This document shows positions 2 through 50,824 of a DNA stretch of 64,000 nucleotides, piece by piece. A program made the translations under genes and the position numbers. The notes beneath the pieces were generated by a model that saw nothing but the letters and a program-made list of their open reading frames with translations, did not search any database and was not told the DNA's origin. The stretch is from Bacteroidetes bacterium HGW-Bacteroidetes-2 (lineage in GTDB: Bacteria; Bacteroidota; Bacteroidia; Flavobacteriales; Flavobacteriaceae), in contig PHDJ01000001.1 of assembly GCA_002842575.1 (NCBI GenBank), positions 124,001 to 188,000 of the forward strand, in the 5' to 3' direction. How positions within the stretch are numbered: the first letter of the stretch is position 1; every line of letters starts with the position of its first letter.

Positions 2-391
2 GAACGATGGGATGCACCACTAAAAACCATTGCCTTTCTTTGGTGGCCATTTAGCATCTATTCTGGTTGGATTACTGTTGCATCCATTGCAAATATAGCT
101 GCATATCTCACTAAAATAGGCTGGGATGGTTTTGGTTTATCTGAAGTGTTTTGGACTATTACAATGATTCTTATTGCTGGCATGCTCCATCTTTTTATCA
201 CTTGGAACCGAAATATGCGCGAGTTTGCATTAGTTGGAGTTTGGGCGTTAATTGCCATTGCTGTTGCTAATTGGGAAGCGCAACCAACTATTGTTTACAC
301 CGCTATTATCACTGCAATTATTTTATTTTTAAGCAGTAGTTTTCACGCTTATAACAATCGAAGTACAAATCCATTTGTCAAATTATTATAA
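2..391 (+). CDS. TspO/MBR-like tryptophan-rich membrane protein (3' part)
   Basis: This is the C-terminal 129 residues of a gene that begins before the window; the frame is open from base 2 to the TAA at 389-391. It is strongly hydrophobic, with about four membrane segments, and rich in tryptophan. The stretch WWPFSIYSGWITVASIAN followed by more helices matches the later helices of the tryptophan-rich sensory protein (TspO/MBR-related) family common in Bacteroidota. TspO relatives sit in membranes and bind tetrapyrroles or sterols, but the ligand here cannot be read from the sequence. The next gene starts 5 bp downstream, so they are probably cotranscribed. The family call comes from remembered family sequence and is fairly but not fully secure. 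Confidence 0.7.
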   Translation, partial: ERWDAPLKTIAFLWWPFSIYSGWITVASIANIAAYLTKIGWDGFGLSEVFWTITMILIAGMLHLFITWNRNMREFALVGVWALIAIAVANWEAQPTIVYTAIITAIILFLSSSFHAYNNRSTNPFVKLL

Positions 392-396
392 TAAAT

Positions 397-1542
397 ATGC
401 TAAAATCGCAAAAAGATCTTTTCTGTTTAGATGAAAATATTACCTACCTCAATGGTGCATATATGGCACCACAATTAAAAAGTGTACAACAAGTGGGAAT
501 AGAATACCTGCAAAAAAAAACAAAACCCTATGAAATTTCTGAGCAGGATTTCTTTTCAGAAAAGCTAGTCTTAAAAAAAAGATTCGCGCAACTTATTGAT
601 GCAGAAGACTATCAAAGTGCTGCAATAATCCCTTCCGTTTCCTATGGCATTGCCGTTGTGGCAAAAAATATTCCGTTTCAAAAAGGCGATGAAATTCTTG
701 TTCTAGAAGAACAATTTCCTAGTAATTATTACACTTGGAAAGCGCTCGAAAAAGAAAAAGGAGTAAAAGTAATCGTGATAAAAACCCCAACAACTACTCT
801 AGGAAGAGGAAAACGATGGAATGAAGCCATACTTGAGGCTATTTCTTCGAAAACAAAAGTAGTTGCAATGCCTCAAGTGCACTGGGCTGATGGCACTTGG
901 TTTGATTTACAAACCATTAGAAAACGAACTAATGAGGTACACGCATATTTAATAATTGACGGAACACAGAGTATAGGCGCAATGCCATTTTCAGTTTCTC
1001 AAATTAATCCTGACGCATTAATTTGTGGTGGGTACAAATGGTTAATGGGCCCCTATGGTTTAGGCATGGCTTATTTTGGAAAACGTTTTGACACAGGAAC
1101 ACCCATAGAAAACAATTGGATGAACCATGAAGGTGTTGACAATTTTTCTAATCTCGTTAACTATAATGAAAATTTTAAACCAAAAGCCACCCGCTATGAC
1201 GTAGGAGAATCGAGTAACTTTATTTTAACACCGATGCTTTCTGAAGCCATCCGGCAATTAATAGAATGGACTCCAGAAGCTGTCCAGCACTATTGCCAAA
1301 AAATTACCGAAGAACCTTTGAAGACAATTCAAAACCTAGGCTATTTTATAGAAGAACCGGAATTTCGTGGGGCACATTTGTTCGGAATATATCTTTCAAA
1401 AGAGCTATCCATACAAAAAATTAAGAATCGCCTATCCGAAAAAAATATATTTGTTTCCTATCGGGGCGGCGCTATAAGAGTTTCCCCAAATGTGTATAAC
1501 ACAACTGAAGATGTAGAAAAATTAGTTTCTTGTTTTATTTAA
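397..1542 (+). CDS. Class V aminotransferase (PLP-dependent, NifS/kynureninase-like fold)
   Basis: A 381-residue protein of the length expected for a fold-type I PLP enzyme. It opens with YLNGAYMAPQ, the N-terminal substrate-loop region of class V aminotransferases. It has IIDGTQSIGAMPF, whose Asp contacts the pyridine nitrogen, followed by CGGYKWLMGPYG, where Lys is the expected Schiff-base lysine. A C-terminal small domain ends in RVSPNVYNTTEDVEKL. The cysteine-desulfurase active-site loop with its Cys is not evident, so an aminotransferase, lyase or kynureninase-like role is more likely than sulfur transfer. The true substrate is unknown. It starts 5 bp after the TspO-like gene. kynA, 11 kb away, does not by itself make this kynureninase. 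Confidence 0.85.
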   Translation: MLKSQKDLFCLDENITYLNGAYMAPQLKSVQQVGIEYLQKKTKPYEISEQDFFSEKLVLKKRFAQLIDAEDYQSAAIIPSVSYGIAVVAKNIPFQKGDEILVLEEQFPSNYYTWKALEKEKGVKVIVIKTPTTTLGRGKRWNEAILEAISSKTKVVAMPQVHWADGTWFDLQTIRKRTNEVHAYLIIDGTQSIGAMPFSVSQINPDALICGGYKWLMGPYGLGMAYFGKRFDTGTPIENNWMNHEGVDNFSNLVNYNENFKPKATRYDVGESSNFILTPMLSEAIRQLIEWTPEAVQHYCQKITEEPLKTIQNLGYFIEEPEFRGAHLFGIYLSKELSIQKIKNRLSEKNIFVSYRGGAIRVSPNVYNTTEDVEKLVSCFI

Positions 1543-1555
1543 AATATCCCTGCAC

Positions 1556-1563
1556 TATCTTTG
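1556..1563 (+). promoter_or_regulatory. Bacteroidota -7 promoter box TATCTTTG before mfd
   Basis: The octamer matches the Bacteroidota housekeeping consensus TAnnTTTG exactly. A TTG lies at 1530-1532, 23 bp upstream, slightly farther than the usual 19-21. The box ends only 6 bp before the ATG at 1570, so the predicted transcript has almost no leader. Confidence 0.6.
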
Positions 1564-1569
1564 CCATCC

Positions 1570-4500
1570 ATGAGTAATTCCTTCGTTGATGCACTTTTTA
1601 CCAAGTCTTCGCAAGTGCGAAAACTATGGGACACTATTACCCAATCACAAAAAAAAATCCATGTTTCAGGGCTGGTTGGGTCTGCTACTTCATTAGTTAT
1701 AGCTCAGGTTTTCAAAAAATTAGAACTTCCGTTATTGCTTATTTTTAATGATAAAGAAGACGCAGCCTATCACTTAAACGATTTAGAAAATATTATTGGC
1801 GATAAGGATGTGCTTTTTTATCCAGGAAGTTACCGAAGACCTTATCAAATTGAAGAAACTGACAATGCCAATGTATTGCTTCGGTCTGAGGTTTTAAACC
1901 GGATTAATTCTCGTAAAAAACCCGCAATTATTGTTACCTATCCCGAAGCTCTTTTTGAAAAAGTCGCTACCCGAAAAGAACTGGAAAAAAACACTCTTAA
2001 AGTTAGTGTGGGAGATTTACTTTCTATTGATTTTATCAATGAAGTACTTTTTGAGTACCAGTTTCATCGCACCGATTTTGTAACGGAACCCGGCGAATTT
2101 TCAGTGCGTGGAGGGATTTTAGATGTATTTTCATTTTCAAACGACAAGCCCTATCGAATTGAGTTTTTTGGCAACGAAGTAGAAAGCATACGAACTTTTG
2201 ATATAGAAACACAACTTTCACTTGAGCAGGTTAAAAAAGTTTCGGTAATTCCAAATGTAGATGCCTCAACCTCACTTAGTATCCGAATTAGCTTTTTAAA
2301 ATATATTCAGGCAAACACGGTGGTTTTTATTAAAAATCCCGATTTGTTGTTTAGTGGCATCGAAACCCTTTTCGCAAAAGCTATTGAAACCTTTTCTTCG
2401 ATGAGCGAAGGCATCAAACAACTGAAACCTGAAACCCTATTTACGACTTCCGCTTTGCTCAAAAAGGAACTTGAAGATTTCACTTCAGTGGTGCTACAAA
2501 AAGGAGGTGCGGAAGAAACAATTCATTTTCAAACCAAACCACAACCCTCCTTTAATAAACAATTTGATTTGCTTATTCAAAACCTGAATGAAAATTCAGA
2601 TAAAGGATATACAAATTATATCTTTTGCTCTAGCAAGCAACAAGCCAAACGTTTTAAAGATATTTTTGAAGATGCACAACAAAGTGTGAAACAATTTGAA
2701 ACTGTTGTTTTTCCATTACACCAAGGGTTTATAGATGATAGTCAAAAAAATGTTTGTTATACAGACCATCAAATTTTTGAACGTTACCATAAATTCCAAC
2801 TAAAAAATGGTTATGCTAAGAAACAAGCCATATCTTTAAAGGAATTAACCCATCTAGAAATTGGCGATTATGTAACCCATATAGATCACGGTATAGGAAA
2901 ATTTGGGGGATTGCAAAAAATTGATATAGAAGGCAAAAAACAAGAAGCTATTAAATTGATTTATGGGGAAAGAGACATTTTGTATCTCAGCATCCATTCA
3001 CTACACAAAATAAGCAAATACAACGGTAAGGATGGCAAACCACCAAAAATTTACAAACTGGGTTCCAACGCATGGAAAATTTTAAAACAAAAAACAAAAA
3101 CAAGAGTCAAGGAAATAGCCTTTAACTTGATTGAACTATATGCCAAGCGTAAATTGCAAAAAGGATTTGCATTTAATCCTGATTCGTACCTACAACTAGA
3201 GCTTGAATCCTCCTTTATTTATGAAGATACCCCAGACCAAACCACTGCTACAGAAGACGTAAAACAAGATATGGAAAAAGATCAACCCATGGATCGCTTA
3301 GTGTGTGGCGATGTGGGTTTTGGAAAAACAGAAGTTGCTGTTAGAGCAGCTTTTAAAGCAGTTGATAATGGAAAACAGGTTGCTGTATTAGTGCCAACGA
3401 CGATTCTTGCCTTTCAACATTTTAAAACCTTTACAGAGCGCCTTGCCGAAATGCCTGTAAGTGTAGATTATCTTAACCGTTTTCGCACTGCAAAAGAACG
3501 TAAAAACGCTTTGGAAAACCTAGAAAATGGGAAGTTAGACATTCTTATAGGTACACACCAACTAGTGAACAAAAACGTAAAATTTAAAGATTTAGGGCTT
3601 TTAATTATTGATGAAGAACAAAAATTTGGCGTTGCTGTAAAAGACAAATTAAAACTTATAAAAGAAAATGTTGACACCCTTACCTTAACTGCAACGCCAA
3701 TTCCTAGAACATTGCAGTTTAGTTTGATGGCAGCACGTGACCTTTCTGTCATCACCACGCCACCACCTAACCGTTATCCCATTGAAACCAACGTCATTCG
3801 TTTTGGCGAAGAAATCATCCGGGATAGTATACGTTATGAAATATCCCGCGGTGGTCAAGTGTTTTTTGTGCACAACCGAATCGAAAATATTGCCGAAGTT
3901 GCTGGTCTCATTCAACGTCTTGTTCCTGATGCTAAAATTGGAATTGGTCACGGGCAAATGGATGGTAAAAAACTTGAAGGACTCATGCTGTCGTTTATGA
4001 ATGGCACTTTTGATGTGCTTGTTTCAACCACTATTATAGAAAGTGGTTTAGATGTGCCTAATGCAAATACCATTTTCATTAACAACGCTAATAATTTTGG
4101 TTTAAGTGATTTACACCAAATGCGTGGTCGTGTAGGTAGAAGTAATAAAAAAGCATTCTGTTACTTCATAACCCCCGAATTTTCAGCAATGACCGATGAT
4201 GCCCGAAAACGTATCACTGCTCTGGAGCAATTTTCAGAACTGGGAAGCGGCCTTAGTATTGCGATGAAGGATTTAGAAATACGCGGAGCCGGAGATTTGC
4301 TAGGAGGCGAACAAAGTGGTTTTATTAACGAAATAGGCTTTGATACCTACCAAAAAATTCTGGCAGAAGCCATTGAAGAACTCAAAGAAAAAGAATTTAA
4401 AGGCCTTTATGAAGATACTACCCCTAAAAAAGATTATCTCAAAGAAACCGTCATCGATACCGACTTTGAAATTCTTTTTCCAGATGATTATGTAAACAAT

Positions 4501-46158: not shown

Positions 46159-48258
46159 CTATTTTTTAACCAATATGTTTTCTCCTAAATACAATCCCAA
46201 TCTTATTTTCCAATAGGGAAGTTGTTCCTCTAGATACTCAAAAATTGGCTTTAAACTTACCTGTTCTTGATTCAATATTTCCTTCGCTTTGCGTACTTTT
46301 TCTATTTCCTCCTTTGAGATAAACGCAGACAAATCTATAGGTGCTCTCTCTTGATGCATATATTGTAAATGTCCAAAAATGGTGTCTTCTTTTAGCCCAC
46401 GCAGTGTGGCTATTTCAGATACAGACATCCCTTTATTAAACAATTGATAGCTTTGTAATTGTGTGGACACTTTTGGTTTTTCATTTTCAATATGTTCTTG
46501 GATTACTTCTAAAAATCGTTGCCCATATTTCTCGCTTTTTGCTTGTCCCACACCGCTTACTTGTAAAAATTCAAATGTGTTTGAAGGAAGAAGTGTTTCC
46601 ATATCTTTCAATGCTGCATCGCTAAAAACAATATACGCCGCAACATTTTCTTCCAAAGCTATTTTGCGTCTTAATTGTCGTAATTTTTCAAACAATCCCA
46701 TTGCTTCTGCTTTAGTAACACTATCTTTATTAGTGATTTTTTCCTTCGGTTGTAGAGATGCTAATTGCACTTTCTTGTTCTCAAAAAGTATTTTATTTGC
46801 CAAAGGAGTTAAAAGTAAACGCCCATTTTCATGAAAACGAATTTCTAAAATACCCTGATTAATCATTTGAATAATATATTGTTGAAGATCCAACCAAGAA
46901 ACATTATTAGCTGTACCATACGTTTTTAAATGTTGGTATCCTTTGTCCAAAACGTTGGCATTTTTTGCGCCGCGAAGGACATCAACTAACATTCCTAATG
47001 CCTCCTTTTCTTCTAATCGATAGATTGCTGAGCATACTTTTTGTGCTAAAACCGTACCATCAAAGAATTTTGGTGGTGTTTTACAATTATCACAATTGCC
47101 GCAGTTTTCAAAAATATGTTCACCAAAATAGTTCATTAATGCGATTCTTCGGCAGCTTAGTGCCTCTGCAAATTGTTGCATACGCTCTAGTTTTGCTAAT
47201 TGGAATTCCTTTGTAGTGGAATCTTCAATAAACTGCCGGAGTTTTACAACATCTGCAAAACTATAAAATAATAAAGTTTGTGCAGGAAGCCCATCACGTC
47301 CACTACGTCCTATTTCCTGATAATATCCCTCAATATTTTTAGGCATATTGTAGTGTATTACCCAGCGCACATTGCTTTTGTCTATACCCATTCCAAAGGC
47401 TATGGTGGCAACAATAATAGGCGTTATATCTTGTACAAAATTATCTTGAATGCGTGTACGCTCTTCGGTTTCTAATCCAGCATGATATGCCTGAGCTTTA
47501 AAGCCTTTTGCTTTTAGTTTTTCAGCAAGCATTTCTGTATTATTTCTGCTCAAGCAGTAAATTATGCCACTTTCTTCAGGACGTGAATTTAAAAACCTTA
47601 AAATCTGGTTCAAGCGGTCTGTGCCGGGTCGTACTTCTAAAAAGAGATTTTTTCGGTCAAAAGAGGCCAAGTGTTTTTTTGCTTTCGGAATGTGTAGTTG
47701 TTTTACAATATCTACTTGAGTGGCAACATCGGCAGTGGCGGTAAATGCTAAAACAGGAATTTTCGGGTAACTATCTTTTAGTTGCCCAAGTTGGGTATAT
47801 GCCGGACGAAAGTCATGACCCCAAGCAGAAATACAATGGGCTTCATCTATGGCAAATAAACTTACTTTAGCCTGAGAAAGATGTGGCAATAATAAAGGCA
47901 AACTTTCAGGGGCTACATAGAGTAGTTTTATTTTTTGGTTGTGTAGGTCATCAAGTACTTTATTTTGATGTGTACTGCTTTGGCTGCTATTATAAAATGC
48001 CGCAGAAATTCCATTTGCATGTAATGCATCTACTTGGTCTTTCATCAAGGCAATTAATGGCGAAACTACGATTGCTGTTCCAGGAAGTAAAAGTGCGGGC
48101 AACTGAAAGCAGAGCGATTTTCCACCACCAGTTGGCATAATGGCTAAAATATCGTTACCTGAAAGTATGTCCTTTATAATCGCCTCTTGATTGGGACGAA
48201 AACTATCATATCCAAAGTACTTTTTTAACAGGGTAGTTGTGTTGTCTGTTGTAATCAT
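46159..48258 (-). CDS. recQ: ATP-dependent DNA helicase RecQ
   Basis: 699 residues from MITTDNTTTLLKKYFGYDSF; the frame extends 12 codons upstream, but that start is less likely. The 3'-5' helicase acts in recombination repair. Motifs: FRPNQEAII (motif 0), MPTGGGKSLCFQLP (Walker A), DEAHCISAWGHDFRPAY (DEAH and RecQ loop), VIHYNMPKNIEGYYQEIGRS, and the zinc cluster C...NCGNCDNC. A winged-helix RQC domain follows, then an HRDC domain (AYIVFSDAALKDMETLLPSN). A C-terminal helix-turn-helix extension includes LFNKGMSVSEIATLRGL. It converges with the FG-GAP gene. The layout is that of full-length bacterial RecQ. Confidence 0.96.
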   Translation of the reverse strand: MITTDNTTTLLKKYFGYDSFRPNQEAIIKDILSGNDILAIMPTGGGKSLCFQLPALLLPGTAIVVSPLIALMKDQVDALHANGISAAFYNSSQSSTHQNKVLDDLHNQKIKLLYVAPESLPLLLPHLSQAKVSLFAIDEAHCISAWGHDFRPAYTQLGQLKDSYPKIPVLAFTATADVATQVDIVKQLHIPKAKKHLASFDRKNLFLEVRPGTDRLNQILRFLNSRPEESGIIYCLSRNNTEMLAEKLKAKGFKAQAYHAGLETEERTRIQDNFVQDITPIIVATIAFGMGIDKSNVRWVIHYNMPKNIEGYYQEIGRSGRDGLPAQTLLFYSFADVVKLRQFIEDSTTKEFQLAKLERMQQFAEALSCRRIALMNYFGEHIFENCGNCDNCKTPPKFFDGTVLAQKVCSAIYRLEEKEALGMLVDVLRGAKNANVLDKGYQHLKTYGTANNVSWLDLQQYIIQMINQGILEIRFHENGRLLLTPLANKILFENKKVQLASLQPKEKITNKDSVTKAEAMGLFEKLRQLRRKIALEENVAAYIVFSDAALKDMETLLPSNTFEFLQVSGVGQAKSEKYGQRFLEVIQEHIENEKPKVSTQLQSYQLFNKGMSVSEIATLRGLKEDTIFGHLQYMHQERAPIDLSAFISKEEIEKVRKAKEILNQEQVSLKPIFEYLEEQLPYWKIRLGLYLGENILVKK

Positions 48259-48365
48259 AATGTAAAAATAAGTTTTATTCTTTATGAATTTCATTTCTTG
48301 TAAAAAGAGGAAAGGTAATGCTTAACAATTATTACGCCTTGGATCCTTTGCGAGATTATAAAATT

Positions 48366-48931: not shown

Positions 48932-49264
48932 TTATTTACCCAAAAGTAACAATTCATTACACAACACTTCGGTAATGTAGCGTTTGTTACCTTCTTTGTC
49001 GTCCCAAGATCGGGTGGTTAGTTTTCCATCAATGGCTACTTCTTTGCCTTTGGTTACATAGTCTTCCACTATTTTTACCAAACCACCTTTTACAACGATG
49101 TTGTGCCATTCTGTGCGTTCTACTTTTTTGCCGTCTTTGTCTTTGTAGCTGTCATCTGTGGCTAAAGAAAATTTAGCCATTTTGTTGCCGTCGGCGAAGT
49201 TAATAATTTCAGGCTCTTGACCTAATCTTCCAATCAACTGTACTTTGTTTCTAATTGCGTTCAT
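48932..49264 (-). CDS. ssb: Short single-stranded DNA-binding protein (SSB) without acidic tail
   Basis: 110 residues: just the OB fold. It has NKVQLIGRLGQEPEI, KMAKFSLATDD, ERTEWHNIVVKGGLVKIVED, YVTKGKEVAIDGKLTTRSWD and KRYITEVLCNELLLLGK, in the usual order of bacterial SSB. It lacks the C-terminal linker and the acidic DDIPF-type tip that recruits partner proteins in replicative SSB, so it is probably a second or specialised SSB. Upstream is a divergent region with phased CGTTT boxes, and downstream a long hairpin. A promoter box is at 49368-49375, giving a leader of about 100 nt. Confidence 0.92.
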   Translation of the reverse strand: MNAIRNKVQLIGRLGQEPEIINFADGNKMAKFSLATDDSYKDKDGKKVERTEWHNIVVKGGLVKIVEDYVTKGKEVAIDGKLTTRSWDDKEGNKRYITEVLCNELLLLGK

Positions 49265-49367
49265 AATATTAAATTTTAATGGTTAAACAGTTAATACATT
49301 TTTGTTGATTCACCCAATTGCTTTTGGTTTTATATTTTTAAAAAGCGGTTGGTTTCATTCAACGGTA

Positions 49368-49375
49368 CAAACATA
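49368..49375 (-). promoter_or_regulatory. -7 box TATGTTTG for ssb
   Basis: Exact TAnnTTTG match on the minus strand, 103 bp before the ssb ATG. No clear -33 element, which fits activation from the nearby repeat array. Confidence 0.45.
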
Positions 49376-49417
49376 AAACGGCTTCCAACAAGTATTCGGT
49401 TTTTACACATTTACTGT

Positions 49418-49462
49418 CGTTTACTTTCGTTTGTAAACGTTTGTAGTCGTTTGTAAACGTTT
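49418..49462. repeat. Five CGTTT boxes at exact 10-bp spacing between ssb and the zinc-ribbon gene
   Basis: CGTTT occurs at 49418, 49428, 49438, 49448 and 49458. Two 16-bp units TCGTTTGTAAACGTTT (49427-49442 and 49447-49462) repeat with a 20-bp period, and each contains the palindrome AAACGTTT. The 389-bp region 49265-49653 otherwise holds only the two divergent promoters and AT-rich DNA. One-turn spacing places all boxes on one face of the helix, so a multimeric binding site is likely. Confidence 0.75.
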
Positions 49463-49653: not shown

Positions 49654-50001
49654 ATGGAAAAATCTTGCATAGAATGTGGTAAAAAATTATTAGGCAGAGC
49701 CGATAAAAAATTCTGTGGTGATTATTGCAGAAACAGCTACAACAATAAATTTAAAAAAGACAATAAGAAATTAGTGCGCAACATCAATAATGCTTTGCGC
49801 AAAAACTATCATATCTTAGAATCCTTAAATCCGGAAGAGAAATCAAAGACTACAAGAGTTAAACTTCTCGCCAAAGGTTTTGACTTTACTCTTTTTACAA
49901 GCATTTACACCACAAAAATTGGGACCGTATATTATTTTGTGTATGACCAGGGCTATTTGCCTTTAGAAGGTGACTTTTTTGCATTGGTAAAAAGACAATA
50001 A
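49654..50001 (+). CDS. Small zinc-ribbon protein of unknown function
   Basis: 115 residues. The N-terminal 25 residues form a zinc ribbon: SCIECGKKL and KKFCGDYCRN give a Cx2C-x12-Cx3C pattern (Cys 5, 8, 21, 25). A basic helix (NKFKKDNKKLVRNINNALRK) follows, then an uncharacterised C-terminal domain (KGFDFTLFTSIYTTKIGTVY). The basic ribbon could bind nucleic acid. Divergent from ssb and 46 bp upstream of a small membrane protein. I know similar flavobacterial proteins only as hypothetical. Confidence 0.8.
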   Translation: MEKSCIECGKKLLGRADKKFCGDYCRNSYNNKFKKDNKKLVRNINNALRKNYHILESLNPEEKSKTTRVKLLAKGFDFTLFTSIYTTKIGTVYYFVYDQGYLPLEGDFFALVKRQ

Positions 50002-50350: not shown

Positions 50351-50824
50351 TTACTTATTTCTATCCCAAGTTTGAGCGTTTATTTTAAGGGAAGCTTTTA
50401 AAATGTCTTTTTGGCTAATCATACCTACTAACTTTTTGTTTTCCACTATAGGAAAACGTCTTCTTTTGGCATCTAAAAAAAGTTTAGCGGCATCAAAAAT
50501 AGAGGTGTTACCATCAATGGTTTCTACCTCTTTTATCATACAATCACCCACTTTTATATTTTCAATAGGCATGTTGTAATATTGACTATCTGAAAGTTGC
50601 TTGATGCAATCTCCTTCAGAAATCATTCCTACCAACTCATGTTTTTCATTCACAACTGGACCACCTGAAATTCGATTGTTAATTAATATCTCAATTACCT
50701 CTGGTATGGTTTGCTCTGGCCGAAAAGAGGTTAAACCAATAGACATAAAATCACGCACTTTTATGTTTTCAAATGGGGGTTTGTCTTTCCCGACAAACTT
50801 CCCCTGAAAATTTTTAATACCCAT
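50351..50824 (-). CDS. Two-CBS-domain protein
   Basis: 157 residues. Two CBS motifs fill most of the protein. CBS 1 is at about residues 22-80 (VRDFMSIGLTSFRPEQTIPE, ISGGPVVNEKHELVGMISEG). CBS 2 is at about 92-150 (VGDCMIKEVETIDGNTSIFD, RRRFPIVENKKLVGMISQKD). Such stand-alone pairs bind adenine nucleotides and regulate partner proteins. The partner is not evident. It converges with the small membrane protein gene. A near-consensus -7 box lies upstream on the minus strand, but it is weak. Confidence 0.9.
   Translation of the reverse strand: MGIKNFQGKFVGKDKPPFENIKVRDFMSIGLTSFRPEQTIPEVIEILINNRISGGPVVNEKHELVGMISEGDCIKQLSDSQYYNMPIENIKVGDCMIKEVETIDGNTSIFDAAKLFLDAKRRRFPIVENKKLVGMISQKDILKASLKINAQTWDRNK

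Follow-up and report, generated by a model that had tools for sequence, protein, structure and literature searches.

The window, by which we mean the whole 64-kb stretch of DNA that was analysed, contains a short ssb gene, a row of regularly spaced boxes upstream of it, a divergent zinc-ribbon gene and a CBS-domain gene. The features are listed below with the evidence behind each.

48932 to 49264, minus strand: short SSB gene of 110 aa, which stops where the OB domain ends (Pfam SSB 3.2e-30, residues 6-106); the gene that the array would serve
49368 to 49375, minus strand: predicted -7 promoter element TATGTTTG (TAnnTTTG), by a start column shared by 80 of 91 arrays
49396 to 49401, minus strand: last box, AACCGA, in the predicted -33 region of the ssb promoter (block of alignment A1 and consensus of the distinct arrays)
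49408 to 49412, minus strand: sixth box, the degenerate AAATG, in the same 10-bp phase (sequence; columns 40-44 of alignment A1)
49418 to 49462, minus strand: five AAACG boxes in 10-bp steps, the upstream part of the putative operator (sequence and matrix)
49654 to 50001, plus strand: divergent gene for a zinc-ribbon (treble-clef-like) protein of 115 aa with a pI of 9.6, which may be the regulator or a partner (co-occurrence and model)
50351 to 50824, minus strand: CBS-domain gene (Pfam CBS) that stays next to the zinc-ribbon gene in many relatives; a marker of synteny outside the proposed mechanism

The window sequence confirmed the five CGTTT copies one helical turn apart that the initial annotation had described, at 49418, 49428, 49438, 49448 and 49458 (AAACG boxes on the minus strand), as well as the palindromic elements, AAACGTTT, which start at 49435 and 49455. 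Nowhere else in the 64-kb window, on either strand, do two or more CGTTT follow each other at 10-bp phase, and 60 Markov-1 resamplings of the window gave no run longer than two. A matrix from which the window's genus was left out scores 48.3 bits at 49392-49451 (minus strand), and the next-best unrelated place in the window reaches -5.7 with the same matrix. The row of boxes was thus placed correctly from the outset, but its extent was underestimated: AAATG and, 11 bp after it, AACCGA continue the array and are followed by the -7-like TATGTTTG, so that the array extends into the predicted ssb promoter region and points toward ssb. With AAATG and AACCGA counted in, five of seven units had been recognized.

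The genome's second SSB has 142 aa and a C-terminal extension. A recQ gene (window 46159-48294) lies downstream of the short ssb gene, and similar genes, judged by N-terminal sequence, follow ssb in L304, L305, L307 and L316.

Conservation of the array and geometry of the ssb promoter

The comparison used 30 ssb loci of the window's genome and its relatives, each from a different genome (56 of 60 genomes gave an SSB match), and the matrix was built from 28 of these loci, relatives that are not independent of one another. The array is present at all 30: 29 loci score above zero with the matrix, and at the exception, L012 (-2.3), a contig end truncates the array. There, R1, a sequence-only covariance model of the ssb arrays that was trained on ssb promoters and gives rough E-values, matches at 5.6e-16. 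At L036 (G007), outside the training set, the array scores 43.4 but lies about 330 bp farther from ssb. Alignment A1, which covers 28 ssb promoters over 60 columns, has zero gaps and a mean column identity of 78%; in its AACCGA block C54 is invariant, and A52, C53 and G55 are conserved at 90% or more.

The phasing is strict as well. Among 76 distinct ssb upstream regions (87 with repeats retained), same-strand AA[ACT]CG boxes are spaced by 10 bp 74 times, by 20 bp 64 times, by 21 bp 36 times, by 30 bp 17 times, by 31 bp 22 times and by 41 bp 42 times; spacings of 5-9 or 12-17 bp do not occur in them. Close relatives keep the array and its phase, and the absence or loss of phasing that had been named as grounds for rejecting it was not found. 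To judge from these comparisons, the array is a conserved promoter element and is found in several Bacteroidota families.

Its distance to the predicted promoter is also constant. In 80 of the 91 distinct arrays that score at least 15 by matrix, NANNTTTG starts at column 76, and in one at column 75. The ten arrays without it at the ssb column include, as five of the ten, every integrase promoter in the set, so that fixed promoter spacing is established for ssb only. A constant promoter position, as expected of an activator operator, was accordingly found at the ssb arrays and not in the five integrase promoters. The flavobacterial sigma-A promoter, in the available parts of PMC9723704, has TAnnTTTG at -12 to -5; this would place the array at about -88 to -31 and the start of ssb transcription near 49363. 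Past the -7 element, the region where the transcript would start, TTTGCA.TGTCGAA, is likewise conserved in ssb promoters and is perhaps an additional control element.

The divergent zinc-ribbon gene

The zinc-ribbon gene was matched in 40 of 60 genomes, and the array stands before a short ssb gene in at least 37 of the 60, all 37 of which carry the zinc-ribbon gene. Among the 20 genomes without this gene, the array is absent from the 16 checked (13 without an R1 match at E <= 0.01 among the matches listed, three by matrix upstream of ssb), with G027, G055, G057 and G059 left out. In G046, G049 and G058 a weak zinc-ribbon match goes with no array that passes these thresholds; upstream of ssb in G049, inspection by eye shows a shortened one. 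The two genes also tend to be linked: 31 of 38 ssb/zinc-ribbon pairs are on the same contig and 23 are no more than 3 kb apart, often separated by 1-2 genes, while seven pairs are on separate contigs, which leaves their distance indeterminate. Maribellus likewise keeps this linkage, and the block of zinc-ribbon and CBS genes recurs in many relatives (the CBS-like neighbour judged by N-terminal sequence). HNH/NUMOD4-like genes occur beside the array opposite ssb at L096 (1069-1620), L301 (1595-2143) and L244 (2352-2909), where at L096 and L244 they have the array on one side and the zinc-ribbon gene on the other; the likeness refers to a Pfam run on L096 only, where it scores under the cut-offs.

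The AlphaFold model of the zinc-ribbon protein is confident (mean pLDDT 94, 33 sequences), and Foldseek returned no structural relative at E <= 0.001. The C-terminal part resembles RctB domains 2-3 (Z 4.6, 3.6 A over 69 residues) and Stn1 (Z 4.2). Examined for a winged-helix fold, this part gave no structural match at Z >= 5, and the RctB value of 4.6 is under the tool's noise level; we treat this likeness of the model as a lead only. Sequence searches with the protein or its family gave a best E of 0.34 in the PDB, nothing in PADLOC and weak matches only in PHROGs (best 8.3e-5). The zinc-ribbon gene may encode a regulator or an SSB partner, or may be merely a conserved neighbour. Its product is the best candidate for the array's regulator, a role that seems quite possible while falling short of probable; the lack of a clear DNA-binding fold match and the fact that the gene does not adjoin the array in every genome speak against it.

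Genes behind the array and the integrase loci

We scanned 247 evenly drawn Bacteroidota genomes with R1 at E <= 1e-5, which gave 39 matches in 36 genomes. The downstream gene is a short SSB gene in 37 cases and an integron-type integrase in two (L360, L365). The 37 include the window, G005 and G040, which were known beforehand, and six assigned by eye rather than by script (L346, L351, L357, L359, L362, L371), one of which, L351, sits at a contig end and is identified as SSB from its first codons only. R1 scores the best 22-150 candidates per genome, and weak targets may therefore be missed. Weak R1 matches within coding regions (for example L087, L092 and L317) were taken as chance. The array is not shared by competence genes: no comEC (24 loci) or dprA (26 loci) locus scores above zero with the matrix, as against 29 of 30 ssb loci, and a competence regulon was rejected on this ground.

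The tie to integron integrases goes beyond what the initial annotation saw. In three genomes of the window's genus, which presumably includes Planktosalinus lacus given that G002 and the named genome G060 agree in their match coordinates, R1 sites adjoin a tyrosine recombinase gene (E 2e-6, 9e-4 and 0.01, among the matches listed). In G002 and G003 the site is flanked by the recombinase gene and by a divergent zinc-ribbon gene from the same family as the one in the window, and in G004 a parDE pair separates the site from the zinc-ribbon gene. Eighteen genomes picked for carrying the integrase have the array before ssb in Flavobacteriaceae, Algoriphagus, Maribellus and Flavilitoribacter, and before the integrase in Flavobacteriaceae F08102 and two Algoriphagus genomes. 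A shuffle test covered 89 integrase upstream regions, a set that includes twice-reached genomes and genes that are broken or mis-started; 15 regions scored above every one of 200 shuffles, where about 0.4 would be expected. The best scores (L156 48 bits, L172 42, L174 34, L159 31, L169 30) all belong to arrays aimed at the integrase, and some of the 15 aim at the zinc-ribbon side instead. The other 74 regions do not pass, and that of the integrase in the window's own genome (L102) is one of these, with 87 of 200 shuffles equally good. On this comparison, the link between array and integrase is genuine in some lineages, whereas in others it is weak or has been lost. An integrase (E <= 1e-70) is present in 11 of 60 genomes, against at least 37 of 60 for the array, so that the integron link is not the array's general function.

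Some arrays stand beside other genes. In F08102, an array (L331, near 2003-2062) precedes an OLD-family AAA/TOPRIM nuclease gene (158-1867, minus strand; PADLOC Old 2.8e-20), and in Maribellus sediminis (L333) a partial array (R1 E 1.5e-5) precedes a gene for a 315-aa protein (2387-3334, plus strand) with no Pfam match. A 380-aa protein with a tyrosine-recombinase motif, identified by the motif only, lies on the far side of the ssb array in G271 (L339).

The recombinase carries a Phage_integrase domain. Its scores fall short of the curated cut-off with the integron-integrase model and with the XerA model alike; the L090 integrase, for instance, reaches 188 bits with TIGR02249 (integron; cut-off 265) and 207 with the XerA model (cut-off 220). 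Downstream of this XerA-like integrase lie attC-like hairpin repeats of about 125-140 nt, with arms resembling CTAACACCGTGTATA and TACACAATTACGTTAG; contigs often stop just past the gene. More than 1.5 kb of DNA past the gene was available at 35 loci; seven of these contain 19 such arm pairs downstream, 17 of them spanning 123-129 nt, and none of the 35 has a pair upstream or on the opposite strand, the arm pattern having been fitted to repeats found earlier. This count takes in L172 alone of the five strongest array loci, and L159 has 98 bases of downstream sequence. Array-bearing L156 has three to four repeat copies downstream with other arms (CTAACAG ... CGTTAGC); the repeat search found partial signs only at L169 and nothing at L174. 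As for the two integrases of the phylum scan, L365 (as L397) is followed by repeat families of three to four copies and L360 (as L398) by one arm in five copies, and the genes past both are mostly co-directional with the integrase.

Eight attC-like sites fold as hairpins (z -1.4 to -4.6). Several hairpin-capable attC-like sites in a single orientation are what is expected of an integron, and by this pattern we read the integrase loci that have them as integrons with cassettes 3' of the integrase. Reverse-oriented integrons of this kind in Bacteroidota were noted at L149, L166, L143, L172, L170, L151 and L187, at L156, and at L397 and L398. Integrons had already been recorded in Bacteroidota (in parts of PMC8618304 and PMC9668308), and cassettes on the 3' side of the integrase are an orientation reported from Spirochaetota (in the relevant part of PMC9668308). 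A Flavo-1 RNA element (L102, 601-673) adjoins the zinc-ribbon/integrase pair of the window's own genome (see also L396, G000:C63 56800-59454), which has 11 Flavo-1 matches, three of them of equal score. Flavo-1 was dropped as an integron recombination site: G002 and G003 have the integrase but no Flavo-1, and its copies do not track the integrase, as G001 holds ten copies and no integrase match at E <= 1e-70.

Regulatory readings and known systems

Comparison between genomes establishes the anatomy of the array, its phasing, its -7 spacing before ssb, its conservation and its two kinds of target gene. A regulator that has yet to be described probably lands on this phased row of boxes before ssb and, in some genomes, before integrases. 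The reading that we favour with fair confidence is that of a multi-box operator through which a cooperative activator would control the short ssb gene and, in some genomes, the integrase as well. An operator for a cooperative regulator had been among the initial suggestions, and it gains support from the conserved phasing, the fixed -7 spacing before ssb and the occurrence in several families. A protein would occupy adjacent AAACG-like boxes along a single helix face, roughly between -88 and -31, with the last box, AACCGA, within the -33 region of a sigma-A-type promoter; the bound protomers would most likely recruit RNA polymerase and thereby activate the short ssb gene. In some genomes with a reverse-oriented integron, the integrase would be under the same operator, and such sharing would lead to the joint production of SSB and integrase during single-stranded DNA handling. 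Boxes on one helix face, the constant -7 distance and the position of the last box in the -33 region fit a cooperative activator that contacts RNA polymerase; protein binding, cooperativity and activation over repression are inferred, as are the signal and the identity of the regulator. A more specific version, in which the basic 115-aa zinc-ribbon protein is a new regulator that sits head-to-tail on the 10-bp boxes and activates SSB and, where a genome has them, integron recombinases, is rather doubtful, though worth considering.

Activation and repression are mutually exclusive readings of these boxes. A cooperative repressor would keep the -33 region blocked up to the arrival of a signal, single-stranded DNA or some other, and the last box does overlap the predicted -33 region; most boxes, however, lie far upstream, and their constant 10-bp phase and fixed -7 distance seem typical of an activator, which makes repression unlikely. 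Phased boxes could also act without any dedicated protein, as intrinsically bent DNA with phased A-tracts that aids RNA polymerase. The AAA runs do come back at 10-bp intervals, with several of the A columns invariant, but the CG behind the A-run is conserved too (C33 at 90% or more, G34 invariant), and AACCG and AATCG boxes interrupt the A-run yet hold the phase. Runs of three A bend DNA little, and we consider this explanation highly improbable. Hardly conceivable is a replication or recombination site, with the boxes as iterons or as an att site of the integrase, although the window has a 20-bp repeat and a recombinase adjoins some arrays. A small site of this kind had been suggested at the outset and is disfavoured by the -7 spacing, which is kept fixed before ssb, by the presence of the array before ssb in many integrase-free genomes and by the attC-like hairpins of about 125-140 nt, which are separate, dissimilar and on the integrase's opposite side from the array; moreover, by inspection of the listed neighbours we noticed no initiator gene.

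The remaining possibility is an SOS operator of known type, bound by a non-canonical Bacteroidetes LexA, with ssb and the integrase as SOS genes. LexA sites of the beta/gamma-proteobacterial type occur in many integron integrase promoters (in the part of PMC3108266 available), and ssb is under the Bacteroidetes SOS motif in several species (in the part of PMC8565304 available). The array, in contrast, is a head-to-tail 10-bp lattice rather than a single palindrome, and none of the 39 strong matches has another SOS-type gene downstream. The published motifs GGA-N5-TCC, CTAA-N5-TTAG and TTAC-N5-GTAA occur in 3, 0 and 0 of the 76 distinct ssb upstream regions, and in 4, 0 and 0 of the 87 regions, against shuffle means of 1.8, 0.5 and 0.9. 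The LexA model TIGR00498 gave some match in 14 of 24 genomes, one of them above the cut-off, which is not decisive. Overall, we regard the SOS explanation as very unlikely. The unenriched SOS motifs, the array-free comEC and dprA loci and the OLD nuclease of F08102 together suggest single-stranded or foreign DNA as the common theme.

A description of the array was not found in the open-licence PMC literature, including the available parts of PMC8459023, PMC8565304, PMC9668308, PMC8618304, PMC9723704 and PMC3108266. Now that a specific element in the DNA, the geometry of its promoter, target genes of two kinds and a candidate gene for the regulator are available, the switching-on of integrons outside Proteobacteria becomes testable in one laboratory strain. 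The array furthermore provides a sequence handle on a putative regulon across several Bacteroidota families. If the zinc-ribbon proposal were true, a zinc-ribbon circuit for single-stranded-DNA handling and gene capture would replace LexA control of integrons in Bacteroidota.

LytTR-type (ComE, AgrA) and BldC-type operators also consist of direct repeats that face one side of the helix and lie upstream of the promoter, where they are bound cooperatively, and the LytTR consensus resembles AACGTTTGT. Unlike these operators, the array has more boxes and a strict 10-bp step. Bacillus subtilis has in SsbB a short second SSB that is separately regulated, whereas the array-free comEC and dprA loci support no competence link here. 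Proteobacteria have a uvrA-ssb SOS box. As proposed here, one regulator, LexA, links ssb and the integron integrase in Proteobacteria through a shared kind of operator (for intI, in part of PMC3108266), and integron recombination is coupled to the SOS response (parts of PMC3108266 and PMC8618304); the Bacteroidota array differs by its 10-bp head-to-tail lattice, its phylum and the lack of further SOS-type genes among the strong matches. The non-canonical LexA regulons of Bacteroidetes come from the same phylum and include ssb in several species, but their sites are the palindromic GGA-N5-TCC and CTAA-N5-TTAG, which are unenriched at the ssb arrays (regulons and sites as given in part of PMC8565304). 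The reverse-oriented integrons of Spirochaetota, as far as the available part of PMC9668308 describes them, share with our loci an integrase, in ours apparently of integron type, and the attC-like repeats in one orientation past its 3' end; those reported here, in contrast, belong to Bacteroidota, often have a divergent zinc-ribbon gene and in part carry the array in the integrase promoter.
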